A stretch of DNA of 64,000 bases from Owenia fusiformis (taxonomy: Eukaryota > Annelida > Polychaeta > Sabellida > Oweniidae). The DNA lies in assembly GCA_903813345.2 (NCBI GenBank), contig CAIIXF020000008.1, positions 12,551,278 to 12,615,277 on the forward strand, written 5' to 3'. The position numbers and the translations under genes were made by a program. How positions within the stretch are numbered: position 1 is the stretch's first letter; the number at the start of each line of letters is the position of its first letter. Positions 9,886 through 62,400 of this stretch are shown here, piece after piece. The notes below the pieces were generated by a model, which was given only the letters and a program-made list of their open reading frames with translations, did not search any database and was not told the origin of the DNA.

Positions 9886-9940
9886 CTTTTCACGTCCTGT
9901 GTTTGCTGTAGGTGTTTTCTCATTTTGCGAGTCAACGCTT

Positions 9941-9948
9941 ATTTATAG
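9941..9948 (-). promoter_or_regulatory. TATA-like box of the first GPCR gene
   Basis: On the minus strand the sequence is CTATAAATAAG, 56 bp upstream of the GPCR start codon. This would place a transcription start about 30 bp before the ATG. Position and motif only; no experimental support. Confidence 0.45.
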
Positions 9949-26427: not shown

Positions 26428-29400
26428 CTGGAAACACAGAGATAATGATTATTATCATAACAGAAAGGAGGTACGACAAGAAACAATAACTTTTTACGAT
26501 TTTTAATACATTACCATTGCCTTCTACATTCTATACAAATGGCAAAGCTTTTAAAGGTAATAAGGAAATTGCTAATGGATTCAATTCATTTTTCTCTAAT
26601 GTTGGTAAAGATACTGCAGCAAGTATAGGGCCCTCAAACAGTACTCCCCGGGAGTTTTTAAGTAAAATGCCAGAAGTAGCTAGTTCTATCTTCCTTCAAC
26701 CTGTAAATAATGAAGAAATCTTAAAAATAATTTCTTCATTGACAGATTCTGCTGCCGGCTCAGATAATATCAAGCCAAAAGTAATTAAATTAAACAGTCA
26801 TCTGATAAACTCACCACTTGCTTATATTATCAATCTGTCATTTATGCAGGGTATATTTCCAGATGATTTAAAATTTGCAAAAGTCATTCCTATTCATAAA
26901 AAAGATCGCAATGACATATTTACACATTACCGACCTGTATCTCTTCTGTCTGTATTCTCTAAAATTTATGAAAAATGTATGTCTCACAGGTTGCTTGATT
27001 TCTTAGAGAAACAAAACATCTTATACGAACATCAGTATGGTTTTAAGAAAGATCACTCAACATTCATGGCTGTTTTAAAATTTGTTGAATCAGTACGCCT
27101 TGCCTTAGAAGATCACAAATATTCCATAGGATTAATGTGTGACCTGTCTAAAGCTTTTGATTCATTAAATCACAATATATTGATGCAAAAATTAAATTAT
27201 TATGGTATTCGGGGAACTGCCTCCGATTGGTTTCAAAGTTATCTTTCAAAAAGATCCCAGGTGGTACAATTTGAAGGGGAAACATCTGATATTGTTGAAT
27301 TATCATGTGGTGTTCCACAAGGAACAATTCTAGGGCCTCTTTTGTTTATTATTTATATAAATGACCTTTACAGATCTTCAGAGGCTGCAGAAATGTTTCT
27401 ATATGCAGACGATACAAATATACTATTTTCTGGTAACAATCTTGATGACCTCAATACCACAGTAAATGAGGAACTTTCTGTAATTAATGAATGGTTTAAG
27501 TGCAACAAACTCGCATTAAATCCAACAAAAACAAATTATATCTTATTCAGGTCTCCAAAAAAAGTAATTGAACATGAAAAAATAAAAATCTACATGAATA
27601 ACTCACTTTTAGATAGAACTATAGTTGGAAACTTTCTTGGCGTACTTATCGATGAAACATTATCGTGGAAACCTCATATTAAACACATTGAAACAAAAAT
27701 TTCAAAAACATTAGGTGTACTTCATAAGGTAAAATTCAATTTAGATGGTAAAGCTTTGAAAACAATATATTATTCACTTATTTATTCATACTTGAACTAT
27801 AACTGCATAATTTGGGGGACTGTCCCTCCATCTTATTTGACCAAGTTACACAGACTACAGAAACAATTTATTCGAATTTTTGATATAAACTGCCAACCTA
27901 GAGATCACACACTCCCACATTTCAAAAGAGCCAATATCCTGAATGTATTTCAAATAGTGTACATGAATATTGCAGTTTATGTTTTTAAATGCACTAAAGG
28001 TGTAAACAAACCCTGTAAGAGGCAATTCAAATATTATTTCACTCCTAGTAATGAAATTCATGATCATTCCACAAGACAAGAATATAAACTTCGACCAGCA
28101 AAGTATAGAACTGATATTGGAAAATTCTCGATATGTAAACAAGGCACTGATATATGGAATGATGTACCTGGAGATTTACTTCGAATCAATTCTGTATCAC
28201 ACTTTAAGACAAAACTGAAGCAATATTTAATAAATCATAAACCATTGGTCTAAATGGAAGAACAAGGAAATAACAATAACAAATCAGTAAATTCAATAGT
28301 GCATCTTTCCTTCAACATTATCATATCAAAGCAAAAGTTATGATTAAATGCATAACTAAACATTCAGTGTTGAAGATGACCACAAAATTAACATATATCA
28401 ATAAACATGACCTTAAACTGACCCATACTATTCAGTTTATCCTGAGACACATTTCTGGCACTCGATCAACTATTCTTTTTCTAAAGGCATCGTACATGTG
28501 GTTGTGGAGGGGAGGGAGACTGAGGTGGCGATGGGGTTCAGTGGTGTGTAGACATTTTGTAATTTTTTTTCATTATTTTACGTTGTAATATGGATAATAC
28601 TCCCATTAGGGGGTCTTCCATCTTATTTGATGTATATGATTTTATTATAAACTGAAATAAAACACAATAACAATAAATAGTTACATTAGTACATATTCAG
28701 TGAAATAAGACTTTATGGCTAAATTGTCGTAACCAGATAGTGTTAATGAATGATAGAGTTTTCCCCATGAAATATCTTCATCTCCCACGAGACCCTCGAT
28801 GAGAAATAGATATAATCATTAAACTTATATTATATACTTGTATATGTACCTTGTATTTCCTATGGAGTTGTTGAATGTCCAACTACACCCTTGAGTTACA
28901 TCAAATTTGATATAGAACTTACAATGTGAGGATACACTCGAGAAGTACACACACACGCTGAAATATAAACAAGTTGGTTTACTGAATTGTAGGTTTTACC
29001 AAAGTCCTACAGAAGTGGGGCAAAAAGGGCCACTTTTTGGGGAAAGTGACGCTGATGGAATCTGGCACCTAAATGAAATAAAATGAATGGCAAGCGAGGT
29101 CGGTGCCATGATGATACCATGTCAGAATAATATCAGGTGATATAAACTTTAAAACAATAAAATAAACTTGGTGGTCCGTCTTGCCCCAAGGCCCTTCTTA
29201 CCCAGCTGTCCTCTACATAAAGGTTGTGAATTGAAGAAAACTGTTTTTTGTATGGTGTCCAATATAGTGGCATTAGGATATCCTCTTTATCTTTAAATTA
29301 ATCAAATCCCTGTATTACACACTACAGTATGACCTTAAATTAATAAATCAACAAATCATACTTTAACTTACCTATAATCCTGAAGGTGTACACTATGTGA

Positions 29401-35400: not shown

Positions 35401-38400
35401 CAAAAATCTTACGAAACGAGCTCGTTTAAAATATGTATTAGAAAACCAGCTATAAAACCGCATCAATGACATACTATAGAATCATTACACGCTATGGTGT
35501 AGTCTAAACAAACACTGGATTTGAACGGCTATTTATATGAGAAGGCTACATGAATTTGTATATGGTCGAGTGATACGTACAGGTTCAGTTTCGATTATAT
35601 ATGCAAAGCTTAACCTCTCCATTAATAAGGAATGAACCACAGGAACCTAAACTATGGAAAGATAGATGGCAATTCTGTTCATACATCAAAATACCTCCCT
35701 ATGAAGAGATATTATAGAAGTATTGATAAGTTCATTTTAAGCAGCAATCTTGTAAAACTTATTTAATTCATAAAACTTACTTCGTTTAAGTTGTTTTATT
35801 TCCCTGTTATTGTTAAGGAGTAATTCTCTCTCTTGAGTATTTGGAAGGGGGTTAGACTCCAGTTCTTGCAGCTTCTTATCTAACTCAGCATTGACTGGAA
35901 ATACAAAGAAATGCAAAATGTGTTAAAATAAGGTAGTTGTATACCCAAGGGCCAAAATATGACTTTACAATGGAAAGCTTGAAAGCTGGCTTTTATTATT
36001 GCTACAACTTTATAATTTTTGTATGTTTTTATCTAATATACTGTTAATTATGTAACTAAGTATAAAAACACATTAAAAATACTATATCTAGTAGAGGGTA
36101 TAATTAATTAAAATCTGTCAAAATTATATATATAAATATAAAGTAAAAAAAATTCAAAATTGTGATATCATGAGATTTACATGTCTTGAAAAAAAGCTGA
36201 GCACTTATCAAATTATTGCTCTCCTGTGCTATAGCATGGAGCCATACATTGTCATGTAAACAACTTAGCTAATTGATTCTTCCTAAGGGATGTTGTCCAA
36301 ATATAAAGTTGTGAAAAAAGTGAGTTAATTGTGTTATGGTTTGACCCCCTCCCCTAATCTAAGAAAATTTACGTAGATTGTCTTCCACTTGAATATTAAA
36401 ATATGATAAAAATCCACACTATTGGCTATGGAAACCATCATTTAGCCCCTCCCCTAATGAAATAAACTTGGTTATTCCACAAATATTGACACTATCTCTT
36501 ACTTAAGGATTTAAGTTTGTAAGGTACAACACAAGGAATGTGAATTTAAATTTATACCATATTGTTGCAACCCCCTTTGTGGTGGTTACAATCTACTGAA
36601 CTGACTCAAAATTCAGAATTCAGCATAAGTGTATGTACTAACCCATCTACATAATGCACGAAGGCAAAGCCTGAGTGCATTATCAGAATGGGTTAGTACA
36701 GACACATAATGCATCACAGGGAAAGTTAATAGGTGAATTGGTGTATATCTTGTTTTCATAGTTCAAGTCGTAGCATAAGGCAGTACAGTACAGGGTTAAT
36801 AATTAATTAGAACTATGTATGTCTTTATTGAATAAATGTTATGGTTTATATATGTCTTGTCCCTTGAGTCATAACCATTATAAGGCTAAGGTCGATAGAA
36901 ATAATTTTTAATAAAGATGGCATGGTAATCGATCTGTGTTTATTGAAAAAGATAATACTGGATTCTTTTGGTGCTGCCATCTTTATACTGGCCCAGAACC
37001 TACGGTCATAACAATTAGATATATATAATATGGATACTACATTGGGAATTTGTATAGGTTTGAATTATGTGACGCTTAATTTGGCATACAACACTCAGTG
37101 GTATTGTAACTGTACTATTCAAGTTCAGCAGAGTTCACTTCTATATATTCACCAGCTATAGTGCAAGCACAGTATAATCAATTGTATATACATGTATATA
37201 CCAAATAGCTGAATAATCATTGCCTCTTTCAACTGAAACATAGTGAAAACCTTAGTGTTGAGCTAGAATCAAAGTACACAAGACTGCATTACATAAATCA
37301 AGCCTTGTACATTTATCATGGATTACTTTCCAGACAATATCATAGTAGTTAAGACAGTGAATGATACTTCCAAGGAGAAAGTTTATATAACAGGACACCC
37401 TGCAACAGTGCATAAAATAATTGCCGAGTTCCCTAAAGGGGATTGCTCCTCTTGTAAGAAACATGGAGACCGTGAGCCTGATGAGGAAGCTGTATTCCGT
37501 GGTGTTCGAGTTCAAGTATATCTTTGCCAAAAAGGGAAAAACTGTGCAAGAGATGTTAAAATGCTACGGGAGTATGGCCTGCCCTCTATTTTACATCAGT
37601 TTGGTTATCGTCTTGGGGGAATGAATACTGGACCTCCACCTTACCAATATGAAATCACTGAGAAGTGGCAGAGAATGTAAAGGTTTGTATGTACTTGCTT
37701 GTTTAACTCTGTCCCTTTCTTCTCCCCTTCAAAACTGAATCAACTGGTTTAGCTGGAAAGTAACATTTTGGTAAAAAAATTGCTATACTATTTTTTTCAT
37801 GGCCTGAGTTCGTCGCTAACATGCTAAATATAAGAGTTAGCTGACTTTTGGGAGTCTGACTTACCTTCTAAAGGTTAGAACCCAAATCTTAATGAAACCA
37901 TATCACCTTTGTTCCGTCAACCATGGAGCATTTGCCACAACATCCAAGAGGTAAATCATGGACCGTGAAAATGAATGATTTCCTTGTAAGTTCCGGAAGT
38001 TTCAATATGAAAAATTACCGAACATATGTGAAAACCGAATATTTGTTCATTGTTTTCACGATTTACAGGTTCGTTTGTTCTTCAATGTTTTGGTCTAAAT
38101 TATAAAGCATCACCAACAGGTCTTACTCTATTAATCGACTAATACAGCAGACGGCTCATATTTCTACGTAGCATTTCGTTCAGACCAATAGTGGGAGTGT
38201 AGATCACGCAGTTACGTTCGTTGCGTACTTCACTTGACATTGGTAATTTTAAATATTGGCTACTTCACTTAGCTTGGCGGATGTAGAACATTGCTTAATA
38301 TTCTTTTAATTTTAACACCAGACATGCTTGGTTGACACGTCAACAAAGTAAAGTTCAAGGGTCCATGCGTTATTTCGTGATAACTACAACGCCTTCCTGA

Positions 38401-41400
38401 AAGTCAACATTGATGAAAAATGAAAAAGTCGGAAAAGCATTTACACTAATTTCTATCAAATGCTGTGTTTATGCATCATCATCGACGCAACAAATGTGAT
38501 ATGGTTTCATTAAGATTCGGGTTCTAACCTTTAGAAGGTAAGTCAGACTCCCAAACGTCAGCTAACTCTTATATTTAGCATGTTAGCGACGAACTCAGGC
38601 CATGAAAAAAATAGTACCTGCACATGTTATTTTCTGGTACAAAATTAAGTATGAAGTCATGTGTGTATTTCCTTGATTTTTTCAGCAAAGTATCATTACA
38701 CTGTTTACTTTCAGAATATCTGGAAACAGGTCAATGGTAGCTCCTGTGTTGTCTGGAAACTTTGAAAGAAAATTTGGAAAAATAGAAAGTGTGAAATATC
38801 AGAATTTCCTGGAGTTTCCATTGAACCCCTACCAGATATTCTAAAAGAAGACAATGTAATGATACTTTCCTGAAAAGAGCAAGGAAATTGACACATGCCT
38901 TCATACTTTATTTTGTATCAGAAAATAACATGTGCAGGTATAGCAATTTTTTACCAAAATGTTACGTTCCAGCTGTACCTTAAATCTAATTTCAAAAATT
39001 TCTCATATTTATTTTAGAAACTTCATACACTTATTATCATAGTATTAAGGATTGTTTTCTGCAATTTACAACAGTGGAAGTCAAAAACTCCCCAAATGAG
39101 GCATGTTTCCCTACTTGTGCACATGTAGGTCAGGTTACTTTCAAGTGTGCTAGTTTAGCGGCTTATTATTAAAATATTTTAAATTGAATGTTTATTCAGC
39201 TCTCCTTCATTGATTTTCCCTCAATTAAGCACCTCCATATAATATACATTTCTTGTGTTCTACTACCCAAGAACTGAATGCTGCTTTGTAGTAATAAATG
39301 TAATTAAGTATATATACTGTACAGTTATTGTATATAATACATTTATTATATATGTATTATAGACCAAAGTTCATACCCAAAATCCAGCATGATTTTGTCA
39401 CTTTCTGTTTTGCTATTTCCTGTTAAGTACAATGGCACCTAGGTGATCAGGAGCCAAAGTTATCAATGTGAATCCCTTGAAATAGCTACAGACCACGTGA
39501 GACCTGGTTTTGTTATATCTGTATATTGCAATACAATATTACAATTATCACATTAACAAGCTTTGGAACAAATTGTAAGGGCTGCTCACACACATTATAC
39601 TTATATAATCTTATTATATAATTTATTAGATTATTATGCAATCAAGTCAGGCTACTCTACATTTAGACTAATCATTTAAACTGTATGATAAAGACTAGGC
39701 TAGACTGACTCTACTGTACTATTCAAGTTCAGCAGAGTTCATTTTTGTATATCCATTCACTAGCTATAGTGCAAGCACAGTGTAATACAATCAATAATAC
39801 ACTTTATTTCACATACTTATAATACACATACTTATATATACCAAATGGCTGAATAATCATTGCCTCTTTCAACTGAAACATAGTGAAAACCTAAGTGTTG
39901 AGCTAGACAGAATAAAGTACACAAGACTGCATTACATAAATCAAGCCTTGTACATTTATCATGGATTACTTTCCAGACAACATTATAGTAGTTCAGTCAA
40001 TAATGGCAAATGGAAATGCCAAGGAAAAAGTTTATTTAACAGGACACCCTGCAACAGTACATAAAATAATCAGGGAGTTCCCCCAAGGAGATTGCTCCTC
40101 CTGTCAGAAAAAAGGAGGCAGCCAACCAGACGAGGAACCTGTATTCCGTGGTGTAAAAGTTCGTGTACATCTTTGTCATAAAGGGAACTGTGCAAGGGAT
40201 GCTAAAATGCTACTGGAATATGGCCTGCCCTCTATTTTACATCAGTTTGGTTATCGTCTTGGGGGAATAAATACTGGACCTCCACCATACCAATATGGGT
40301 ACACTGAGAAATGGCAGAGATTGTAAAGGTTTGTGTACTTGTTCGTTTAACTCTGTCCCTTCTCCCCTTCAAAACTGAACTGACCAATCAACTTCAACAT
40401 CACATGTTTTAAGTAGTTCATAGGCTTTATCAAACTGACCCTGCTCCCTCATCTCTTCAAATATATATATACTAACCTATTAACTTAAACTCTACATGTA
40501 TTAAGTACTTCATAGGCTCAATGAAAGCTTGTATTTATCAGTACAGGTGAAATAGGCATATACTGTGCAGATATATGAAGAGGTTTAGATTCACATTAAT
40601 TGCTATTTCAAATAAAAGATTAAATTGGTCCATAAATAATCTAAGGAATAGAAAGAAAACAGTAAGTACAAAATATCAAACAGATATATTCTATATCAAC
40701 ATAAAATAAACAGAAATATTAGATTCAAATGGATTACTTTCCAGACAATATTATCACAGTAGAGGCATTAATACACAGTTATGAAGTCTGTCTAATAGGA
40801 CACCCTGCCACTGTGCATAAAATAATCCAGGAGTTTTCCCGTGGAGATTGCTCCTCTTGCAAGAAACATGGAGAAAAGCGACCAAAGGAAGAAGCTATTT
40901 ATCGTGGTGTTAGAGTCCGAGTGGAGCTCTGTCACAAAGTGGAAAAGCATTGTCCAAGAGAATATAAATGGCTAATTTTCTAGGTGCTCCCATCTATAAT
41001 GTACCAGTTTGGTTATCGTTTGGGTGCTGGGATCAATAATGTACCCGGTGCCATGGGATATATCCAAACATGGCAGAGATTAAAAACATTTCAATAAGCA
41101 TAAAATGTTATTGTACTCTTCTACTGCTGATTGTAAATGTACAATCATCTAATCATTACTAATTCCAAAGTCCTAGGTCTGTCAGTAATACGATTTTTGT
41201 ACTATGGATGATCAATACAGAATTAACTTGGGTCATATTCACAGGGACTGCAAGTACAGGAATGTAATATTAGATCTTCAAATACAGCTGAGTTATAGGC
41301 ATGCAGATTCTGTAAAGGCTACATGTTATAGGCCTTAAATTGATTTAGAACCTTTTGAAGGTAGGATTAGATTAACTGAAAACTATTATATTCACAAATG

Positions 41401-44400
41401 TAGACATATCATATATGCTATCAAGATAAACCAAAGGCAATATAAACTATCATAACATATAACATTGTATATATATAAATACATGGAGAACCCTGAGCAA
41501 CATACTTTCAAGACAATATTATTGTACTTCAGTCAATGATGCTGACCTATACTGGCCATTACTAGAGTGCTGCTAACTCGATAAAAGGCTGGCGCTGGCT
41601 AGAATTGTCTATGGTTCTAGCCAGGATAAAGATACCAGTTCTTCAACTTGACAATGGGAAGAACTGCTCTACCTTAGTGACTAATATGTCATGATATGAC
41701 ATCTAAAGAGTCAATATAAAGATATATATATATAACAGGTCAACCTGCAACAGTGCATAAAATAATTGCGGAGTTCCCCCTAGGAGATTACTCCTGTTCT
41801 CAGAAATGGAGACTTTATAAAAAGTTTTACTACTTTTTATCTATGCTCTCATAAAATGCCATAGTAAGGTATGTAGATATGTAGTATTCTAACATGATAT
41901 GTGATGTCACAATAACGAGAACAATTGATTTATTGGTCTATATTGGAGTATGTATAACCTGTAAAGGATCCGTACCTATTAGTGTACCTATAAGAACTTA
42001 GAAAATTATTGAAAAGGGTAAAGTGGAATTCCAGAATTATTTTTATGCAATTTGAATCTTTATTAAGTATATTTTCAACAAATCACAAAAATAGTGTGGA
42101 AAAAATGGTAAGAAGGTGTTTTTACAGTGATTCTTAACACATGTCATGTTGACTCTTCAAATGAGTAATTTTGACATATTTTCACAGAACCTTGATTAAA
42201 ATCTTGAGTTTTGTAGATAGACTTAATTTCACTTTTCAATATAAGAATTACAATGTGTCCTAATCTACTAAGCTTCATTTCATGTACCATTCATGCATAA
42301 ATAGTTAGTAATCCTATTGTATTGAAAGACACCCTATTGTGTTTTTGTTGTTAACAGTGAATGACCTTCTCCATTCATTGACAGATTGAGGTACTTCCAC
42401 AAACCAGACCCCCTCTGAATTTACCTTTATTGTTTAGTATTGACACTATTTTATAATTCGAACATGAAATAAGAGAGGGTCCTAAGTGTGGAAGATATAC
42501 AATATGAAAGTATAGCAAATATTTTAGTTTCAAAAGGGAGGCCATATTGAAATTGCCAATATAGTCAAGATTCCATTCTGCCTTGAATGTATTGCTTAAG
42601 GTAGGTGCAACATAAAACCTTCTATAAAAATAGAAAATCTTATTTGGAAAGATATTCTGGACTGAACCTTCCAACAAACTCTATCATTTACAATAACTAT
42701 TGTGTCAATGTATCACGCCACAGAGACATCCAACCCGGGTTCCCATAGATAATTCTGAGCACCATGTTCAAACCTCTAAACAGATATGTATTCAATTTTC
42801 AATGATAACAAGATCAACGAAAACGTGTCATTTGCAATACAGCAATTAAATCACAGGTAACTTAAAATATGTTTTTCAAAAATCTGTTCATTGGGTATAC
42901 TATTAGAACATGTGATATGTAAGCAATGAGCCTGATAATCGAAAAAAAATATTTCAACTAGTCATTAGTTCGAATGAATATTGCTTGTTAAGTGTTCATA
43001 TGAAATAAACTAATACTATTATGTCATCATTGTTTCAATTTCTTTGACAATGAAAAAATAATGCAATGGAAAGTCGCAACTAGATTTAGGTTTTGTATTT
43101 TCAACTGTTGCTCTTTGTGTTCTACTTTATCTTTAATGATGTTTTGACATAGTATCTAGGTTGAATACCTAGGTTAAAGCTACAGTATACACAATAAGGG
43201 TGATCATGGTACTATTGTTCAGAACACATTTAACAAGGTTCATTTTATCATATGATATATTATTTTTAGGGGTTATTTAATAATTTGTGTGTTTCAGTAT
43301 GTTGCCCTCTGTGTCCCACCTTAATGATATATTAATATACCCTCTAGGTTGAATGCCTACTGTTAAACAACTGAGGTGATCATGGTACTATTGTTGAGAA
43401 CATATTTATTAAGGTTCATTTTTTCAAAAGATATATTAGTTTTAGTTTTTTTATGATATGTGTTTTCAATATGTTGCTCTTTGTGTTCTACCTTAACGAT
43501 GTTCTGATATATCGATTAAGGATTGGTCAACATACTTAAAATGATCATGAATGAAGACTAACATACCCTTAAAATGATATTTAGAATGATTTGCATAGTC
43601 AAACTTAAATGCACTGAATGACCTTAGTTTTAATCCAAATGACCTAATTTCATTTTCGATGTGTTCATAATTGATAGAAGTAACTATTTTCATATTATCT
43701 TCAATGAAACCTTTGGGGGCACCTTCAGGTACATTAGGTAACGGATCCTTTCAATATAGACCAAAAAATGTAATGGTTATCACAATTGCATACTCACCCC
43801 CTCTGAACCAATTTAGTCACAATATAGGATGGAGTCAAATATGATATAGTAATGTGACGTCAGTTTCATTATTGATATTTTGCAAACTATTTAGCTAGGA
43901 GGAAATCCGGTAAATAGAATGTCCAAAACATTAGAATTTTTCAGATTGAAAATATTCAAATCGGAAGAAACTTAGGTTTTATCATGTTAGAATCGTAACA
44001 AAGACCTCGATTCTATGATTTATGGCAAATATATGACCTCAAATTTTATTCTGCCCATTGCCAAAGACCTCAATTGCTACGCGATTTCGGTCTTAACAAT
44101 GAACAGAATCAAATTTTCGGTCATATATTGCGCCATAAATCATAGAATCTCGGTCTTTATTACTTAAGTAATGAGTACTATTTCCACGTTTTATGTTTTA
44201 TGTGGATGTTTAGCATTTACACACTACTGTGAATAACATATAGTTCAATACCCTGCGTGCAGAGTCTAGTATAAACTACCCTCTGCCCAGTATAGACTAT
44301 ATTACAGTTTAGCAGCCCTACCTCAAAGATTGGTGCCTGTGAGAGCCCGGGTAATAAATCATTCCAAATCTACCACGCTGACCCTTCCTCAACCACTAAG

Positions 44401-47400
44401 CGAAGTGGAACGAACGCATGCTAAATACGTGCTCATTAATTATGCGGAGATGCCATAGGAAATGACCATATAGAAAGTCATCCATATTTCGACAAATTCT
44501 GATTGGCTCGGTGAGATCAGAGATTTATTGTAAACTGAAAGAGTGAAGACGAAGCTCTCTTTTAAGGAGTGAAGTCGAACCAGAACAACGGCAACGCCAA
44601 AGCGTAGCGAATCCCATCGAACAGAGATAGCTGGCATTTTTACAAACGAATAGCAAATATCATAAAACAACACACCAGAAAGGCCACCATTTTCAAAATG
44701 GTTGCTCACTTGCCAAGGTGTCATCAGAAGAAATAATATGCTTTTAAGTAGCCACCTCTAAAATTTTTGAAAAATCACACACATACTTGTAAATAACTTT
44801 TCGAGTTCTAGTAAAATACGTTAAAATGGGGGCCATTTTTCAATTTTTTTTTCAAAATGGCCGCCTTCTCACAAAAATGTCATAGGACAGTGTGCCATGC
44901 TTATAGTATTCACATACCAAATATGAACAAAATCGCTCCACTACTTTTCGAGTTATAGTAAAATACGTTAAAATGGCGGCCATTTTGAAAAATGGCCGCC
45001 TTCTACCAAAAGTGTCTTTAGACAGTGTGCAATGCTTATAGTTTTCACATACCAAATATGAACAAAATCGCTCCACTATTTTTTGAGTTACAGCAAAAAT
45101 CGTAAAATGACGAGTAAAGGCCGCCATTTTTCAAGATGGCTGCCATGGGCTTCTTTAATATCTACATTTGTAGCATTATTAATGTCCTTTATAATTTTTT
45201 ACATTTTAAAACATATTGCTATTACAGTTTTACATATTGCACCTAAATTACTGTAAAATCGGCACTAAAATGGCCGCCATTTGGAAATGAGCGGCCATTT
45301 TGAAAATTGGCTTTCAAGCAGAACTTCTACCCCCATAGGGTATATGTGTACAAAATATGAACAAAATCGGGCCAACGGTATTTGAGTTATTGCCCGGACG
45401 GACGGACGGAGGCGTTCCCTATATCCCTCCGAACTTCGTTCGATGGGATAATGAATGCAAAGGGTGATAGTTCAAAAATATTTTGTTAAATTTTGTTGAT
45501 ATGACATTTCTCAAATTATTTTCCAATTTTCTGGAAGTACGGAGCTAAAACATGCCTCCTATACTTCACTCAGATGGCCGTCAGTTCTGACCTTGCTAAC
45601 CTCCTTCCACCCGAACCACATTCTCGAATCGAGTTACCACATCGCAAAACCACACAGTTTTGTGAACTGGTGGTTCACGACTAAAGAACTGATATCTGTG
45701 TTGTGAGAATGTGGTTCGGGTGGACGGATTGAGGACAGAGAGGAAGTCTAGGAGGCCTGAAAAAGGTAACATTAAACTATAAGAACATCTACAAGATTTC
45801 AATTGATATAGTTTAGCATATAACCTTTATTCAAAATATTGTTTACTCAGTATTATCAGTAAAACACAACCTATAAGTAGGTTAACATCAAATAAAAAGC
45901 AGGGCGATACATATAGGTCAGTATTAATCTAAGCGGTGACAAGACTATTCCAGTTTGAAGTGGATTTATGTACAAAAAGTAAAGAATATTGATATATATA
46001 TATACATTAAATATCAACATAAACTAAGCATATACTAGAGAGTTTAGTATAACTCTATCTAAAATGGATTACTTTCCAGACAACATTATTGTAGTTCAGT
46101 CAATGCTGTCCAGTGCAACTTCCAAGGAGAAAGTTTATATAATGGGGCACCCTGCAACAGTGCATAAAATTATTGGGGAGTTCCCCCAAGGAGATTGCTC
46201 CTCTTGTAAGAAACATGGAGACTGCGAACCTGATGAGGAAGCTGTATTCCGTGGTGTTAGAGTTCGAGTACATCTTTGTCTTAAGGGGAAAAATTGTGCA
46301 AGAGATGTTAAAATGCTACTGGAGTATGGTCTGCCCTCTATCTTACATCAGTTTGGTTATCGGCTAGGAGGGATAAATACTGGCCCTCCACAACAATATG
46401 GATACACTGAAAAGTGGCAGAGATTGTAAAGGTTTGCTTGTTAACATCAAACTCTGTCCCCCCTAACATCATCTCTTCAAATGTGTACTAACCTATTGAC
46501 TTCAACTCTACATGTATCAAGTATTTCATAAGCTCAATTAAAAGTGGAGAGGAGACTATAAGACTACTACTTTTTATTCTTGTCCTCATAAAATTCCATA
46601 TTATAAAAACAGCTACAGGATTTTAGTTGAAGGTTTTAGCTGATTCAAATAATAAGGAGTTTAAGCTTGCATATAAAATTGAAATGCTAACCTATATCGC
46701 CCATACAAATGTATCGCTTAAATATTTTCTGTTCACATTTAGGTTGTGAAAAACATTGCAAGCTTTAAGTCCCTATTGTTTAGCCAGTACTTATCAGTTC
46801 AAGTAGAACATGAAATGTACAAATATGAGTGGTATATTATCTATCACAGGGGTTTCATTAGCAGTAGGCAACAGGCTATTTTCATCAGTTGTTTTCACAA
46901 AATCACTTGTTGTTTTTAGGGACTTTTTCAACTTTTCCATGTTCCATTACTTTTGCTTGTTGTTTTCATTTAATTAGCCTGTTGTGAGAAATTCTAGTGA
47001 CACCCTTTATCATTGGGATAGCTCTTTCGAATAAAAGCAAAACTTTAAATCAGTCTCTAAATAACCTAAGGAATGAGAAGAGAACTGTTTAATAATAAAA
47101 ACTATTGCAGTAATATTCATTCTCTGAGCAGAATCCTGTTTCCCTAAGGCATCTTTATCCATATTTCATGCTGATCTCAACTTATCATTTATGTATTTTT
47201 GACTAAAATAAGCACAACTAAAAAGATAAGATGGTCTTACTTCATTCAGAGATTCTGTATAAAACAGGCACAACATCCCCAATTTACAATCCATATAAAT
47301 CAATTAATGCAATTTTTTCATTTTGAGTTACTGGTATGAAATATGTGAGGCCAATGACCTAACTGAGAGTAAAAAGCAAATGTCCAAGGTACATATTGGC

Positions 47401-50400
47401 ACTGAATTCAATAGGAGTCCAACATCTACTTTTTGAAATAATCACTTGATTTGTGACACAACCCCCATAATAACATTTTCAGGTTATTTTGATAACTGAT
47501 TGAGGTTATCTACTGATTGAGGTTATCTACTGTTATCTTATATGAGGAGACAATTGAAGATTGTCAGGCTGTGGAATTTAACACAGCAGTGAATTGGTTT
47601 ACTCATACAAGGGTGATTTAGTGACACAAGTGTGATTTAAAGACTGCACATATTAACAAAGTGGTAAAGTGGAAGACCGATACTGGTAAGAAAACCATTT
47701 ATAAAGACATGGGCTTTCAATCTATTGAATGCCCATGATAAAGATAACTGCACTCACTAAATGTTCTGCATTAAGACCATTACAGTATTTACATCCAAAA
47801 ATCAGTGAACTCTCAATATACAAGAAAAATATAGTTGACAAATAATTTTAAGTTGCACTACTCATGTTTCAAAGGAATCTACCAATCCAAAGTTAACTAC
47901 TTTGGATAAAGTCACTACTCAAGAAAAATTACTTGCAAAGAAACATTAGAGAAACTGAATCCCATTTGATTATTATTACAGGCATAATGATAGGCTTATT
48001 CAACAGGAAGCAACCCATTAAAGTCAAACATGATGAACTTGAGATACGTCCGTTTGAACCAAAGAAGGACAATTGGGTAGAAGTGAGAAATATGGCTTTT
48101 GCTTCGTACAAAGAGCTTATTACAGAAGTTATAAATGACTTCATGTTTCATCCAATACTTAGCAGTATACTAGCCATATTAGCTGGGGTGTTATACCAAA
48201 TGAAAGGCTCCTTGTGGAACCCCTTCATTTTCCTGGTGGTGTTATATCCTACATTGTATTTCTTCTTAGTCTGGAAGATTCCCATTCTGGAGATGTCTAA
48301 GCAGGTAGATTATGACAAATTTGTAGAATATTGGATTCAACCAAACCATCCTTTATGGCTGTTATTCCACAAAGGGAAACTGATTGGCAGTGCTGGTTTG
48401 AAGGAACTTGATGTTAACACAAGAGGTGAACTCGTGCGTGTATATATAGCACCAGAATATAGGCACAATGGACTTGGTGAGATTCTGGTTTACACTGTTA
48501 TAGATTATTGCGAAAAGCACAAATATGACGAATTGACACTTGCAACGAGCGTACTTCAAACTGCTGCAATGAAGCTTTATGAAAAGATTGGATTCAAACA
48601 ATATAAACCATATACTGCATATTACCTCAAACCTATATTGAGTGTTGAAGAAAATATGTACAACATGACATTTCCAAGGAAATAAATAATTAAAACTACA
48701 TTGAACTTTTAGCATGAGAATTGTCACTTTATTCAATTCAATGACTGTGAAGTTTCCAGCAATCTAAACTGCAAACTCCCTTAAAAGTCTTTCTTGTTAC
48801 AATATTTAAAATTAACCCATTGTGCCCCTGTAGACTAAAATTATAAAATATTGTTTCCCTATAAAACCTATTAAATATGTTTGCCAATAAAACCTATTAA
48901 TATACGTTTTTTCCAAAAATGGTAGCCATTTATCTAGTTCAGCATCATCTCGGAAGATCAGTATCTCAGATACTGTAATTTAGTCTGCACCAATTTTTGA
49001 AAAAAAATTCTCTGCAATTTTCATCTTGTGCCTTTTCCATGTGTTCCTTTCACAATAATACTAAGTGAAAATCTTAACAAAACTGGATAAAATTTCAATT
49101 TTAATCTTTTTCGGAAGCTCTACAGAGTCAAAACAATCTGATACCAGGAGAGGTGAAATTGCTTATGGAAGGCAAGTTGCGAAGTGAGTACTACAATTGA
49201 TGATGGTCAATTCGCCAAATTAAACAGCAGCCAAAATTTGGCCTAATCCACCAAATTAAATAGGCCCAAATTAAAGCAATTTACAGTGGATAGACATTTA
49301 TTTGGCAAAGTACTCTGTACTCTTAGCTACTGCTATATACCAGAGGTCAATTTAAACTGTACAGAATACACTTTCAATACACCTCATATTTCGTATAGGC
49401 TAAAAGCACTGGTAATATGCTACTTAGATCTTCACTATGCTGCATTGGCTTTCATATGAAATGCAGACTATACAGCTAGAGTATACTCGTATAAGAACCG
49501 ACTTAGATATGAGCCATTTAAGCATTTAGACTGAATGAAAGCTTTTGATTTTTATACATACAGACATATGAGATCAAGATAAATCAGTCAGACAATAAAC
49601 TATCATTACATTTAAATATAATGGAGAATCCAGCCACATACTTTCCAGATAATATTATAGTAGTAGAGGCATTAAAGCCCAATGTAGGTGGGGATGAGAG
49701 AGTATATCTAATAGGACACCCTGCAACAGTACATAAAATAATCAAGGAGCTGCCTTATGGAGACTGCTCATCGTGTAAAAAACATGGGGATCAGGAACCA
49801 GAAGAAGAATCTATTTTCCGTGGGGTGAAAATCCAAGTACATTTATGTAAAAAAAAGAAAAACTGTGCTAGGGATATAAAAATGATATTGGCATATGTGC
49901 TGCCATCTATATTATATCAGTTTGGATATCGGCTAGGGGGAACCACGACATTGTACCCCTCGAATGCTGGATTCACAGAAAAGTGGCAGAGATCATCATA
50001 AATGATTATGCATGTATGATGTGTCCTTGGTTAACATCTAACTTCTTTTTGATTGAGCATCTGCGGCTATTGATTTATTGAATCTATCTTCAGCGATACT
50101 GCTCTAATATGTGTTACTCTTTCGCCAGATATCACTTGTCCTTACACTACAGCAGTGCAAAATGCTGTTCAGAAAATATGTAGCATATTATCCAGGTGTG
50201 AGTAGGTAGTTATTTAACCACCAGGTGGCTAATTCGAGGTAGATAACATTGAAGGGTATTAGAAAGTGTGACTAAACTTGAATGTTCATCAGTTTTAGTG
50301 GTTCAATTTTCATATTACCCTTATGTATTTGATAGTAGTTATACAAATTAAAATATGTCTAGTAAAATAAATATTATCTGTCCAATATACGAAAAGATAT

Positions 50401-53400
50401 ATCATTTTTGTGATTTTATAACATGGGGTCTATGGGATCTTAATGGGGAATCTCAGTAAAACACCTTTGTAAAATCAAATGGCATATATCCAATAAACAG
50501 TATTCATAAATGGTATTCACTCTTCATAAAGCAACCAAATGGAAACATTTTGTTAGGGCATATCAAAAGCAATGACATTGAAGTAGAAGCAACTTAAGGG
50601 GTTTTATCTAAAACAGTAATATTCAAGTAGAAAATGTTGAATGACCTTTATTGAATAAGGGGCCTGTTGTTATCTTTTTTAATATTGTATACCATTAATT
50701 AATAATACAATGCACAGGTTGCACTGTATTGAGCCCTTAACACAGCATGTTTAGTCAAACATGAAATGCAGCATGCATATAAGGCTTTATAAGCAAAACA
50801 TTTTCTATATATTTTCAGGTCAATTGGCTCGTGAGCAACAGTTGGACAACAAGGGGTTTATTAATACAACAAGTGCATCATACACAAGACTTGGGGAAGA
50901 CAACGCATGTGATGGCGGGGCTATATTTCGACTATCACCAAGTTCAGAAGGATGCACCCAGAATGCAACAAGATACAGTGATCTGGTGATTGATATCACA
51001 CATTGAAGAGCAAAATGGCCACCATGTAATTTACCCAGCATGCCCGAAGCCTTCTTAGATCTTGACACTAGTCTGCTCTTGCATTTGTGAAGATTTCAAG
51101 TTGAATGGATAAGTAGATTTCCTGGAATTTTAATGACAAGATTTATGTGGTGCTCACTCATCCACCCAAAGTGGGATAAAAAAGGCTGAAGTGTGATTAT
51201 ATCTCCATCCTGTAGAATGAACAAAATATCTAGGGTTTGAGGGACAGATACATTGTGTTCCAAATGGCCATTCCTCCACAGTGAGTCCCTCAGCCCAATT
51301 ATTAACCTCATGCTCTATAGTCTATACAATACTCAAGCCAAGAAAAGTTGATTAAAATTTTGGAATGGTGCTGCTATCAAATAAAGGTGATATTTCCAAA
51401 AAGTGGATGGTGCTTATTAAAATTGAGTAAAGTAACTTGTACAATAGTTCTATGTAAGTTCATCTCTCTGGTTAATATATCAGAAACAAGTCAAATTCTT
51501 TACTTCAGAGAATATTTTTAATTTATTGAGACTTTCGACTAATATCCCTTAGTCTTTTTCAAAATATAACAGCATGTATACATTTATGTGACGTCATAAA
51601 CAGACAATGGAAAAATTTAATTATGTAACAAATGACCTAGTAACCTAAAAAATAACAACAACAAAAAACATAGATACGAAAAAACGAATGACCTAATAAT
51701 AACCTTAAGATAAATATATCATCGTTATGGTAACAATTAAACTCAAATATTACTATTGCATACTTTGCTATACCATTCTTAATTTACAATATTTTATGAT
51801 ACAAATTGTCCAACTGATACCCATTATCTCTGTTCATTTTAGGTTGCATTGTTTTAATATGAATTGCTTCCTTAACCCTACGTTTAAGATCATGACTCTC
51901 ATTATCAATGATTTTTACATTGTTTCAGTTTTTTCCGCAGAAGCAAGACCTCCAGTCGACAGTAATGTGGGTCTACGATGTTCTCTGATTCTAGTAACTA
52001 GTTCCCGCTTTGTTTCACCTACATAAGTGGCAATACAGTCTTTACAATCAATTTTGTAAATTACACCGGACTTATTTTGATCATTAGTTTTTGTCCTTTT
52101 TAGTTTTTTGCAGAATACTATCAAGAAACAGTTGGTGCATTTAAAGGACAAAACTAATGATCAAAATAAGTCCGGTGTAATTTACAAAATTGATTGTAAA
52201 GACTGTATTGCCACTTATGTAGGTGAAACAAAGCGGGAACTAGTTACTAGAATCAGAGAACATCGTAGACCCACATTACTGTCGACTGGAGGTCTTGCTT
52301 CTGCGGTTATTGAACATTCCATGGAATATGATCATAATATAAACTGGAACAATGTAAAAATCATTGATAATGAGAGTCATGATCTTAAACGTAGGGTTAA
52401 GGAAGCAATTCATATTAAAACAATGCAACCTAAAATGAGCAGAGATAATGGGTATCAGTTGGACAATTTGTATCATAAAATATTGTAAATTAAGAATGGT
52501 ATAGCAAAGTATGCAATAGTAATATTTGAGTTTAATTGTTACCATAACGATGATATATTTATCTTAAGGTTATTATTAGGTCATTCGTTTTTTCGTATCT
52601 ATGTTTTTTGTTGTTGTTATTTTTTAGGTTACTAGGTCATTTGTTACATAATTAAATTTTTCCATTGTCTGTTTATGACGTCACATAAATGTATACATGC
52701 TGTTATATTTTGAAAAAGACTAAGGGATATTAGTCGAAAGTCTCAATAAATTAAAAATATTCTCTGAAGTAAAGAATTTGACATGTTTCTAACTTGTACA
52801 ATGTTGCAGTCCTGCCTCATATAGAACACTGATATACATTTCATACAGTAAAACCTATATCTAGTGAACATCTTTGGAACCATAAAACCGTTCACTGTAG
52901 GTGTTCATTTAAGATTTTTCTAATACATAAGTCAATGAAGCATTGTTCATTAGGGAATCATCCGTTGGTCACTAAAGAGAATAGTACCAGAGAATTTTAC
53001 TGTACATATAATCATATGTCATATTATGTATATATATGTATTGTAATGCACCCTACACTGCACCCCAATCAGATTCACATTGAATCAACATGGAAAAATA
53101 TGGATCCATGTGAATTTGGATCTACACAAATACATTAAGGAGGATGCACATGCCTTTATATACAGATTCCACATTACAGTACATTGGTTTCACAAGGATT
53201 CCATGTGTATCCTGTGTTTTTATTATATAAAATCATAATACAAACATACCTGTATCTAAACTGCTTCTTGCATTGGTGACTTTGTTCTGTATATCCCTGA
53301 CCTGTAGCACACATGTGGAAAGCTCTGTGTATTCATCTTCCAGGTGGTCTTCAATAGAATTGATCATAGACACCTTCCAATTTCTAAATTTCTTGCTCAC

Positions 53401-56400
53401 CATCTTCCTCAGCAAAGATAAACGATTGGTCAACTTATCAGACAATGTCTGCAACTGAAATGAAACAATATTAACTTTTTATTGCTAATTTCTCTACTAA
53501 TGAACTGTATTTTTGAATTAAATTTCCCTTTAAGATCCAAATACTGCGATTCGATAAATCCAACTCTGGGTAATTGGTATCTACAATTTTTCTGTTTCTT
53601 GAATAAATAATACGCAATGCCTCCAAGTAGATCAATGCTATATTTTACCTGTTCTGTCGAGGCTGATTTAACATGTGCAAACATTGGAGGGTTACACTTT
53701 GACAGCTCAGCAACCATCTGCTCATTAGCATTCTGGATACTGAAAATACAAAAACCATGCTACAGAGTGAGATCATATATAGGACCATCATAGGATCTGT
53801 TATGTTGGGTCAGTTTTCCCTAAGGAAATACTATACTCCCAGTAATTTTCGCGTGCTACTATATTTCGCGCTTTTCGCGAGTTTTGGAAGATTCACAAAA
53901 TATAATAGCTGCAAAATTCAAAAAGTTCTAATTCGCGAAATATAATAGTCGCAAAATGCCTAAGAATTCATTTCACTCAATGTTGATGATAGCTTCGTCC
54001 AGTATTGGGCGATAAAAGGTTGGGAGGTTACTGTATTTTTACATTCGGATTCTAAAGATCATCATTAAATGAACATTCTCATAAAATTGCTCAAGATGAA
54101 GGGTAATCACGGCTGATAATGAAATGGAAAGCGTGGAAACCCACTATAACTCTAAAAACATACATAAAGTAATCGCCAACCTAAATAAAAGAACCAAGAC
54201 ACATTTTGAGAACTCAACTACCGCGAAAATTAGTAGCCGCAAAATTTCAAGAAAATTAGCGAAATATAATATCCACGAAATTTCAAAATTGCAATAGTGC
54301 GAAAATATAATATTGTCAAATATGAGTGTGAGTACAGTATTTGCATTTCCCTCTGGATAAATCCTGTATCTAATCCCAGTGCATAATTAGAGGTTATGTC
54401 ACTATCGTTGCATATATGCCCGAGGGTTTCAGTGATATATAGCCCGACCTTGGGAGGGACATTGATCACTGAGAACCCAGGGCATATGTCACGTGCAACT
54501 ATAGTGACATAAACGATTTATAACATACCTATGATGATCAAGTCTGGTCAGAGAGTACCGTTTTCTTGACTAGCAATGGTTCGGAAATGATGATTTATTC
54601 CCATGTTTATATCTTACGAATGTATGAGTCAATTTGACCTAGGCCTAATGTATGACGTAGTCCCAGCCCTTGACCAATCAGAAAGTTAGCGGGCACGGGC
54701 TTTTTAAAAGTTATATTGGCCCGCTGTCTTGTGAACAGTTTACACTATACATCATCATAGGTATGTTATAATCCTTTTTATTCCACATTTAGTGATGTTA
54801 TAGGTAAATCACACTTACAGTTTTGCCTTCTCTTCCAATTCTTTACAGTATGTGGAATAGATCTCTTGTTGTGGCTTCACTATAGACATTATATTTAGGC
54901 AATCTGACATAGTCTCTGGAACAGCTCCCTGATGAAATAAAAATGAACTCATTATATTTAGGCAATCTGACATAGTCTCTGGAACAGCTCCCTGTTGAAG
55001 TAAAATTGAACTCATTATATTTAGGCAATCTGACATAGTCTCTGGAACAGCTCCCTGTTGAAGTAAAATGAACTCATTATATTTAGGCCCTGATGAAATA
55101 AAAATGAACTCATTATATTTAGGCAATCTGACATAGTCTCTGGAACAGCTCCCTGTTGAAGTAAAATTGAACTCATTATATTTAGGCAATCTGACATAGT
55201 CTCTGGAACAGCTCCCTGTTGAGGTAAAATTGAACTAATTATATTTAGGCAATCTGACATAGTCTCTGGAACAGCTCCCTGTTGAAGTAAAATTGAACTC
55301 ATTATATTTAGGCAATCTGACATAGTCTCTGGAACAGCTCCCTGTTGAAGTAAAATTGAACTCATTATATTTAGGCAATCTGACATAGTCTCTGGAACAG
55401 CTCCCTGTTGAAGTAAAATTGAACTCATTATATTTAGGCAATCTGACATAGTCTCTGGAACAGCTCCCTGTTGAAGTAAAATTGAACTCATTATATTTAG
55501 GCAATTTGACATAGTCTCTGGAACAGCTCCCTGTTGAAGTAAATATGAACCAATTATAGTACAATGTTTGACCTTTTTAATGCCATACATAATTGTAATA
55601 CACATGTACTATATTTATTTGTAATAAAATCTCAAATGAAATGAAAATAAGGCATTGACATGCAAAATGTCACCACCTGCCATTTGTTACAGATGCCAAA
55701 CACTGACTGCCAAATCCTGTCCACAAAAAAAGTTGGAGACTATAACATGTCACCTCTTGTGGTGGTGACATAATAAAATATTTAAGTGTCACAGGGTTTA
55801 CAGAATACCATAATTGTTTAATAGTCAAATTGCAAAAAGACGCCAGCTGATGAGGGCTTATGAGACACTAAAGCATTGTTAAAATTATTTTGTGCCATTT
55901 TCACTCTAAGTTAACACATTTGACTTAGACTCAAAGGGGTAGATAGTTAGTATCAGACCTCCCAGAATTATGCAGGCAAAAAATTGAAATTATGCAACAT
56001 GTTTTGAGTACAGGTTCAATCTGTATAACATGAGTGTGCAGTTATGCTATATAGTATGCATGCTGGGGCTGCTGGCCTTCATTATACTCACTTGTATAGG
56101 TGTGATACTATATCTACTGGCTTGCTGATCAGGGATATCTAGCTGCACATTCAATGTTGACAGGAACTCCTCCACACTAAGGTTCATGTCCATGTTGAAC
56201 ACATTATCAGACTGAAAGTAACAATGTATCATCATTGCATGTGTAGCTCAGTGGAATAGCATGTACCATGTTGATTAATAGGGCAAATAGGCAATATTAC
56301 TTCGTTGCATTATATTAAAAAATCCAGGGTTTTTGACTGAGTGGACTTATGACAACAACCCAGGCTGTAATGTCTATTTGTCTCTAGGAATTAGTGCAAA

Positions 56401-59400: not shown

Positions 59401-62400
59401 CGAAAATCAGTGTGTTCAAAAGTTTTGGAATTTAGAAGTCAAGAGTTCAGAGAGTGTCTGCTACCAATAGCCTATAGGCATAACAGGTAGTTTAATTTAG
59501 GTCAACAGATTTAGGAATTAAGACTAAGGACTTCAGAACTCACAATGTTCAGTAATGCACAACATTTTACAATTATATTATTTCCTTGAAATCATATCAG
59601 CAATGCTCTCTATGTTCAACCATGTACACGATTACATAGATCAGACTCATATTACTTACCATCAACAGTTGCAGCATCAACAGCTGTCATTGGTTTCACA
59701 ACATCTAAACTCTTAAAAGCATCCTCTGCATAGTCAGGTAGTGCGTCATTATTTGCCAAGACAGAGTCCTCAAGTACTGTGGCAGGCTCAGCAGATTTGA
59801 TGGAACCAGCAGTGTTGATTTCATGCAGAGACTTGAAGGCATCTTCAGCATAGTCTTGAACAGACATGGCTATGGAGCTATCAGTATGATCTGAGGTGAT
59901 ACTACTGTGTTTTAATACTGAGACTCCAGGTGTATTCACAGAGAAAGTTGTGTCCCGATGCTCTACTGATTTGGAGCTTGTATTTTCAGTTGGTTTGCCC
60001 ATAAGTGATTGTTCAATATGGGTATTGTTTGCTTCAACATGGGTATTGTTTGCTTCAACATGGGCATTACTTCCTTTAACATAGGTGTTGTTTGCTTCAA
60101 TATGGGCATTACTTCCTTTAATGTAGGTGTTGTTTGCTTCAGTATGGCCAGTACTTCCTTTAATGTAGGTGTTATTAGCTTCAATATGGGCATTACTTGC
60201 TTCAATGTGGGCTTCACTTCCTCCAATGTGAGTGTTATTTGCTTCTATATGAGCATTGATATTAAGAGGAATAGCTTCAGTCATTTCCATGTCAAGACCA
60301 CCACTAGTCTTGTTGTGATTTTCTAGTTTTTCTGGAGAGGTTCCTGTAGGTGTCTCCAAGGAAGTTTGAATTTTCCCAGTGAATGCTTGGGTCATTTCCA
60401 TATCAAATCCACCAACATTTGTCCTATCAAATATCTGTGTCTTATCATTTGTGTGTGTTGTGTTAGTTGTTGGTTTCACTCCATGTGATTGTATGTTTGC
60501 AGTAACAGCTTGGGTCATTTCCATATCAAATCCACCAACAGTTGTCCTATCAAATATCTGTGTCTTATCATTTGTGTGTGTTGTGTTAGTTGTTGGTTTC
60601 ACTCCATGTGATTGTATGTTTGCAGTAACAGCTTGGGTCATTTCCATATCAAACCCTCCTAAAGAAGTTTTGTCTAAACCATTACATTCATCATTTGCCT
60701 CATGCTTCTCTGTTGGTTTGGTGATATCCATATCAAAGTCATCTACACTAGTTTTCTCAAATTCCGAGGTTTTATCAATTTTCTTGGGAATCTCTAGATC
60801 TGTCTGGATGTTTCCAGTGACAGCTTGGGTCATTTCCATATCGAATCCACCAACAGTTGTCCTGTCAAATATCTGTGTTTTATCATCTGTCTGGATGTTT
60901 CCAGTAAAGGCCTGAGTCATTTCCATGTCCATACCTCCAACAGAAGTTCTGTTTAGTCTCCTGTTTCTGGCTTTAGACTTGGGTATCTGGAGGTCAACTT
61001 GAATGTTCCCTGTTATAGCTTGGGTGAAGTCCATGTCAAATCCACCATCTGAGGTTCTGTTAAAAATTGTTGTTTTGTCAGGTAGTTCTGTTGGAGTGTC
61101 ATCCATGGTATTCAGAGCTGTTGGTTTATCCTTATCAGCCTCAGTGAGTTCACTTGTTGTTTTTATGAATGCAGGAATAGCCTCAGTCATCTCCATGTCT
61201 CCTCCTAGTGCTGATTTATCAAATATGGCTGTCTTATCAGGAGTATCTGGTATAGCAGTAGTGTTAGGCTTGGTAGCTTGCCATCCTTTAACATTTGATT
61301 CAGTTGGCTTACTGTTGAGAAGGTCACCAACACATGCAGTAAACTCCATTTGGTCATCTTCGGTAAATAATTTAGTTGCATCGAACCTTGACTTTTTAGC
61401 AGTATCTATACCCCCAACACAGGTGGTAAAGTCCATGGTATCAGTTTTTCCTCCTAAGGAAGCTCTCGCTCTATTTAATGTCTTTTTCAAGCGTTCAACA
61501 GGATTCAACTCCTTGTTTGGGTCATTTACAGCTATACCTCCTACACACGTTGTGAAATCCATTGCTTCTGTATGATCGTTATCAAAATTACATGCAATCG
61601 ATGAGCGTCTTTTCTTCGCCTTAGCCAGCAGTTTTTGGACAGGTCCTAATTTTTCCTCAGTTAGGGTTGGTTCATCTGGTGCATTGGTGGCAACTTCAGC
61701 AGGTGGAGCTTTAAATTGAATGGTGTGGTCAATGGGGTCTATGTTACCTACATGGATGGCTTGGGAGACAGGTAGCGTTTGATCTTCACTACTAAAGCTA
61801 CCCTGCTTGAAGCTTATTACATTATCATCCATAGATTCATTGAGGCTGGATTCAAGCACAGGCTGTGGAGATACAGCATCAACAGCTGTGACTTGATTGG
61901 GTATTTCTTCAGGTTGTGATTCAGAAACAACATTGTCTGGCTCAGGATTAACATGAATGGTCTGATCTTGGTTGGGTTTCACAGATATAGCCTGTGAGAT
62001 TGGAACTGTGAAGTCCATTTGGGCAGTATCATCAAACACATTATCTGTTGTTATATCTGGAACATTCAGAGTGGTCTGAGTTATACTCCCAACACAAGTA
62101 AAGTCCATCATTGGACCATTTTCAAAAAGTTGTGTCTTCTGCGAATCATTCTGAGAAACTTTACCAATGAAATCATTTTGACAAGCAGTCATCTCCATAT
62201 CATTATCGCTAGAACTCGATCTTGTTTTCTGGACCTCGCCTAGATTGATTTTGGTTTGGAAGGTAGAGTTATTGGTGGACTTCATGAGATTGTTAAGAAA
62301 GGTCCCAGAATCAATTTGAGCTGAAGGGGGACCTACAGTTGTATCCATCAGTCCACCTTGACAAGTTGTGAATTCCATTTGATTTGTATCTTCTTCATTA

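Follow-up and report, generated by a model that had tools for sequence, protein, structure and literature searches.

The window, i.e., the 64,000 nucleotides (nt) of Owenia fusiformis DNA analyzed here, contains six copies of a small cysteine-containing protein gene on the plus strand, inside a single intron of a KNL1-like gene that runs on the minus strand. A 1,190-amino-acid open frame of the host (59655-63224, minus strand) matches the Pfam model MELT_2 (PF15402; E = 1e-14), and the host is, by its sequence, a minus-strand gene with MELT repeats, as in KNL1. When the genome was searched with the Knl1_RWD_C profile there was no match, and the control was equally silent, so that this result carries no information. 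The intron runs from a GT donor at 53249 to an AG acceptor ending at 35895, with compatible phases (1); the exons flanking it were picked by eye, and neither has a specific Pfam match. The initial annotation had placed the cluster within one 17.3-kb KNL1 intron, on the opposite strand, and had counted six copies (four intact, one nonsense, one fragment). The splice signals and open reading frames (ORFs) agree with it on both points, and the copies are present at the places it gave, on the plus strand. For copy E it had reported the fragment at 41729-41806, which is there, and had missed an N-terminal piece starting at 41483. The features are as follows:

35895-53249, minus strand: host intron of KNL1, GT...AG, 17,355 nt, with the family cluster antisense within it.
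37318-37680, plus strand: copy A, intact coding sequence (CDS) of 120 amino acids plus stop, identified by ORF, alignment and the ratio of nonsynonymous to synonymous substitution (dN/dS).
39961-40326, plus strand: copy B, intact CDS, 121 amino acids, first sequence in structure model 1.
40729-41092, plus strand: copy C, with a single in-frame TAG at 40981-40983 and all four cysteines kept.
41483-41806, plus strand: copy E, decayed, with an N-terminal piece from 41483, a central piece at 41729-41806 and other DNA between them.
46064-46429, plus strand: copy D, intact CDS, 121 amino acids.
49621-50001, plus strand: copy F, intact CDS, 126 amino acids, first sequence in structure model 2.

The four intact ORFs in the window are all single-exon, on the plus strand and 120-126 amino acids long; copy F is the most diverged among the intact copies of this cluster. 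Intact copies carry two cysteine pairs spaced CxxC and Cx4-5C, of which the first is altered in copy E. No N-terminus resembling a signal peptide was visible on inspection by eye.

We searched the whole genome (525 contigs totalling 498,259,871 bases; of the 16 sampled for length, twelve were of 32-62 Mb) with copy B, which gave ten matches: the four intact copies, the nonsense copy, the central piece of copy E, three loci on contig C11 and one at chance level (E = 2.33). A search with one of the C11 copies returned the same set minus the decayed piece, plus another chance match (E = 8). Because three further intact ORFs, not noticed in the initial annotation, lie on another chromosome, on the minus strand of C11 at 22062081-22064107, the family extends beyond the KNL1 intron. 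Across the 498 Mb it comprises nine loci in two clusters, with seven intact genes. Identity of the C11 copies to copy B is 41, 43 and 45%; they keep the cysteine pairs and most of the LPSIL...GYRLG block, and are without [10 protein letters not shown]. The motif blocks originally quoted for the family hold in the window copies, and only in part for those on C11.

The second cluster is antisense between plus-strand exons at 22058555 and 22069490 that have a cysteine pattern in common. The Pfam EB module (PF01683) scored above its cut-off in the exons at 22058555 and 22073067, and the exon at 22069490 was assigned by its cysteine pattern rather than by a Pfam scan. All nine exons of this EB-like pattern (9/9) are followed by GT at the same place, are preceded by AG at -26, -29 or -35, and are in one phase. 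The C11 cluster probably lies inside an intron of about 11 kb, taking both flanking exons to belong to one gene. The plus-strand series of EB-module-like exons that surrounds it extends over C11:22058555-22075841 and includes a long open-frame tandem repeat (L034:3313-4452).

As estimated by the NG86 (Nei-Gojobori) method, dN/dS within the KNL1-intron cluster was 0.33 (A-B), 0.20 (A-D), 0.18 (B-D), 0.19 (A-F), 0.23 (B-F) and 0.20 (D-F), and among the C11 copies 0.30, 0.27 and 0.22. Bootstrapping was applied to six of the 21 pairs, and in all six the 95% interval ended below 1 (for A-F, after leaving out 5 of its 500 replicates, in which dS was infinite). In 10 of the 12 between-cluster pairs dS had reached saturation. 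Change was greatest at third codon positions in 21/21 pairs, and in plain nucleotide alignments gaps were absent or multiples of three in 8/9 within-cluster pairs and 16/21 of all pairs, the five exceptions being four pairs between clusters plus B-F. (Gaps in the codon alignments are multiples of three by construction and have no evidential value.) Selection on a fold, which the initial annotation had suggested, is supported by the within-cluster range of 0.18-0.33, and the dN/dS comparison among copies that it had proposed gave values in this range, not near 1.

When the copies were compared by blastn with 1.2 kb of flanking DNA, A and B were alike over about 200 nt before the CDS and 60 nt after it, and are, from this comparison, recent duplicates. 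B and D had the CDS and about 110 nt downstream in common, and for A-D, A-F and D-F homology was limited to the CDS within about 10 nt: that of A to D and F begins no more than 6 nt from the start codon of A and ends within about 10 nt of the stop. Among the C11 copies it sets in 3-9 nt ahead of the ATG and continues for 3-12 nt beyond the stop codon. Because the limits of homology fall so near the ATG and stop, each copy is most likely a complete single-exon CDS. In the intact window copies no AG stands directly before the ATG; in the C11 copies this position is occupied by AAG, possibly as part of the start context or else as a splice acceptor.

Could these ORFs be non-functional or transposon-derived, kept by chance or by recent amplification? 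Two of the six window copies are broken, and repeats and retroelement-like ORFs lie close by. However, the within-cluster dN/dS of 0.18-0.33, with bootstrapped intervals below 1, largely refutes this for the intact copies, the search of the 498-Mb genome found just nine family loci, all at one or other of two places, and the conserved unit of diverged pairs is nearly the CDS alone, so that we regard this explanation as highly improbable. A transposon-encoded protein, with dispersed copies and neutral decay, was likewise rejected given the nine loci at two places and the purifying selection. As judged from these alignments, the family consists of real protein genes rather than transposon debris.

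By sequence the family is indeed unrecognised, as the initial annotation had stated. The seven intact proteins gave no significant match in Pfam (best weak single-member match, E = 0.13) or in NCBIfam (best weak single-member match, to a deacylase model, E = 0.046, taken as chance), nor in the PDB by phmmer or by profile; a profile match to NusG (E = 1.4) was also taken as chance. None of the seven matched the GFRP model (PF06399), and there was no match to BTB_2 (PF02214) in the family proteins. In viral and prokaryotic contigs, degenerate patterns gave 75 and 22 pattern matches, respectively, none of which was confirmed, in a search with little power to detect distant relatives; nothing at E 0.001 or better came from the viral structure library. 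In an open-licence library of papers a search for the motif gave no paper, and among those listed in searches on KCTD proteins no title or abstract beginning describes such a BTB-less, stand-alone or expanded family. By fold, in contrast, the statement does not stand, since the predicted structure is that of the KCTD C-terminal domain (tail) and GFRP: of the two checks that had been proposed together, the hidden Markov models (HMMs) gave no significant match, whereas the structure models match KCTD tails.

The structure was predicted as a single chain in two AlphaFold runs on the five window sequences only, with copy B first (model 1) or copy F first (model 2). Model 1 had a predicted local distance difference test score (pLDDT) of 69.6 and a predicted template-modelling score (pTM) of 0.63; for model 2 these were 73.6 and 0.69. 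In both, the order of elements is beta-beta-alpha-(short helix)-beta-beta-alpha-beta-beta. Foldseek placed human KCTD1 first with both models (E = 4.9e-4 and 1.4e-3). With VIA-align, the KCTD8 H1 domain gave Z = 9.8 (2.7 Å, 87 residues aligned) for model 1 and 9.5 (2.9 Å, 87) for model 2, followed by KCTD1 (8.6-8.8 and 8.4-8.8), KCTD12 (8.0-8.8 and 7.9-8.6), KCTD16 (8.3 and 8.3) and the trypanosome protein Q4D6Q6 (7.7-8.1 and 8.4-8.5). A trypanosome mitoribosome-assembly protein (6.0-6.3 and 6.4-6.7) and GFRP (5.6-6.2 and 5.4-6.0; root-mean-square deviation 3.8-3.9 Å over 78-82 residues) came lower, and the next row after these matches had Z = 4.6 and 4.3. A published DALI matrix, as excerpted from its source, gives 10.1 for KCTD1-KCTD8 and 9.6 for KCTD1-KCTD12, and the same excerpt has most KCTD tails sharing this domain despite no general sequence similarity (PMC8699099). 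Given those published values of 9.6-10.1, the Z values of the family are comparable to those between true members of different clades. We consider it likely, on these models, that the family has the KCTD-tail fold.

Several results weigh against this assignment or against kinship with KCTD proteins. Both models rest on one shallow five-row alignment, and in model 1 both cysteine loops (43-53 and 76-78) have pLDDT below 50. Foldseek TM-scores to KCTD1 were just 0.41-0.51 by query length, and with model 2 no match passed E 0.001. According to the VIA-align notes, a best Z of 7-8 is often seen for models that have no clear match, and the best value here, 9.8, is above that level, though not far above it. 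No family protein of the seven was listed for PF23110 or PF20871 at E up to 10 (HMMER filters drop most matches above 0.1). Finally, when the seven-copy profile was aligned by hhalign with six KCTD tails, P was 0.16, the score being equalled or exceeded by 46 of 200 column-shuffled controls (one control at 139.2, probably a parsing slip, was kept in this count); with the four H1 domains alone P was 0.29, and with the two KCTD1-type tails alone 0.013, a subset picked after the fact. As a yardstick, the genome's own KCTD1-type protein reached only E = 0.022 against the KCTD8/12/16 H1 model. By these profiles, sequence kinship with KCTD proteins is not confirmed.

If the structure models were wrong, the family might be a small zinc-ribbon-like protein of unrelated fold, in which the cysteine pairs organise the whole domain. 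This would suit the CxxC and Cx4-5C spacing of the intact copies, the weak single-member matches to HypA and zinc-ribbon models (E = 0.13 and 0.14), the moderate confidence of the models and Foldseek TM-scores near 0.4-0.5. However, those HMM matches lie far under curated cut-offs and involve single members only, while both models have the same topology and a whole-domain match (78-96 residues) that stands above the following rows; we therefore think a zinc-ribbon-like protein unlikely.

The four cysteines are invariant in 7/7 intact copies (positions 44, 47, 71 and 76 of copy B, numbered without the first Met) and belong to a set of 35 invariant columns. For any four given residues, the probability of all lying within 35 of 120 columns is 0.006, though cysteine tends toward conservation anyway. 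By the predicted strand order, the first pair comes before strand 3 and the second after strand 4, in loops of low model confidence; because the pairs flank strands 3 and 4, both should lie at the base of one hairpin. Since no secretion signal is visible, a metal site is favoured over disulfides, and zinc held by the two pairs is, on the models, somewhat probable. To a similar degree, analogy argues for assembly of the subunits into a ring.

These elements can be combined into a mechanism. The protein would be a KCTD-tail/GFRP-like protein-binding module lacking a BTB domain, with an added staple of four cysteines, probably binding zinc. Its subunits would close into a ring, by analogy with the five of KCTD1, KCTD12 and GFRP or the four of Q4D6Q6, and the ring would bind a partner protein at its outer face. 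The cysteine pairs, at the same end of the domain, would bind a zinc ion, which staples the strand 3-4 hairpin at its base, and tandem duplicates might vary the choice of partner or the make-up of mixed rings. Taken as a whole, a BTB-less, ring-forming module of this kind with a zinc staple is the reading that we favour, at slightly better than even chances, its ring, zinc and partner binding being inferred. A broader proposal, which we advance only tentatively, is that the genes represent an undescribed animal family of BTB-less, zinc-stapled KCTD-tail rings, arranged in tandem and antisense in introns of unrelated hosts at both loci, that diversifies partner specificity or modulates KCTD/G-protein signalling of the animal itself. 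The fold itself is already known; the combination of BTB-less, four-cysteine, tandem and antisense in probable introns was not found in the titles and abstract beginnings mentioned above. From only five local copies, an intron-nested tandem family with no Pfam match has been given a likely fold; if the proposal is true, it would also be an example of a signalling-adaptor tail without its BTB head.

The same fold would also suit a decoy, in which the protein enters or caps the tail ring formed by KCTD1/15 or KCTD8/12/16 of the same animal, or competes for partners such as G-beta-gamma, and acts as a natural dominant negative. Possible partners exist: the genome has one PF23110 locus and one PF20871 locus (on contigs C2 and C3), neither in the family clusters and each in a BTB_2-bearing open frame. 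Identity to KCTD tails is only 9-16% over aligned residues, however, and we rate a decoy as rather improbable. Less probable still, and by a clear step, is a metabolic regulator like GFRP, whose ring would bind an enzyme, GTP cyclohydrolase I for example, and tune it. GFRP is itself a stand-alone domain with a fold of this kind and is matched at Z = 5.4-6.2, but the Z values of KCTD tails are higher by about 2-4 units, PF06399 matched 0/7 proteins, and a GFRP match of the genome's own, split into two pieces, lies elsewhere, on contig C8 at 36.6 Mb, about 24 Mb from the KNL1-intron cluster.

Other features lie near the cluster. Between copies A and B are two neighbouring inverted repeats (37786-38940), foldback-like in appearance, with arms of 146 nt (94% complementary) and 130 nt (85% complementary). 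The KNL1 intron also houses, between copies D and F and antisense to KNL1, an intact single-exon ORF for a GNAT acetyltransferase (47987-48685, plus strand; PF00583, E = 2e-19), which we take to be NAT8-like. GIY-YIG-like fragments recognised by eye at 52081-52488 (plus strand) and 51787-52160 (minus strand) are perhaps Penelope-type remnants. A tandem repeat at 54815-55608, open in several frames and with a unit of about [21 protein letters not shown], probably occupies another KNL1 intron. Reverse-transcriptase-like stretches at 23761-25325 and 26490-28253 (plus strand) are, from ORF reading only, probably of the long interspersed nuclear element (LINE) type. At coordinates below those of the KNL1 exons seen, two related single-exon ORFs on the minus strand, 8914-9942 (342 amino acids) and 19364-20617 (417 amino acids), both measured stop to stop, were recognised by eye as resembling G-protein-coupled receptors.

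How does the family with its proposed stapled rings compare with known systems? To the KCTD8/12/16 H1 domain (PF23110) and the KCTD1/15 C-terminal domain (PF20871) its likeness is one of predicted fold and element order, over 82-90 residues, with Z = 7.9-9.8 to KCTD1/8/12/16 in the models. Unlike KCTD proteins, it has no N-terminal BTB/POZ domain (PF02214), and diverged copies are homologous only from the ATG or close to it; none of the 42 listed BTB_2 matches in the genome is near either cluster (none within 10 Mb, the only one on C8 being about 10.9 Mb off and none being on C11). It differs also in having no match to the tail HMMs, in its four conserved cysteines in two pairs, and in its stand-alone, single-exon genes in tandem clusters. 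Because the predicted tail fold comes with neither a BTB domain nor a tail-model match, we have not filed the family as KCTD. The trypanosome proteins Q4D6Q6/Q586B2 are, similarly, small and stand-alone with the same topology (Z = 7.7-8.5), and are described as tetramers in an excerpt of PMC10899635, but they belong to the kinetoplastid lineage and are 12-13% identical over aligned residues, a likeness of fold only. GFRP, too, is a small stand-alone protein, probably of the same fold, although it is shorter (about 84 residues), is the weaker structural match and has no HMM match to the family. An excerpt of the KCTD1 structure paper describes GFRP as a pentamer, reports a common fold and pentameric state for the KCTD1 tail and GFRP with virtually no sequence similarity, and raises a possible common ancestor of the two (PMC7618933). 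If our reading is true, the family would add a further branch for testing that ancestry, as a stand-alone animal family with a clear structural addition.

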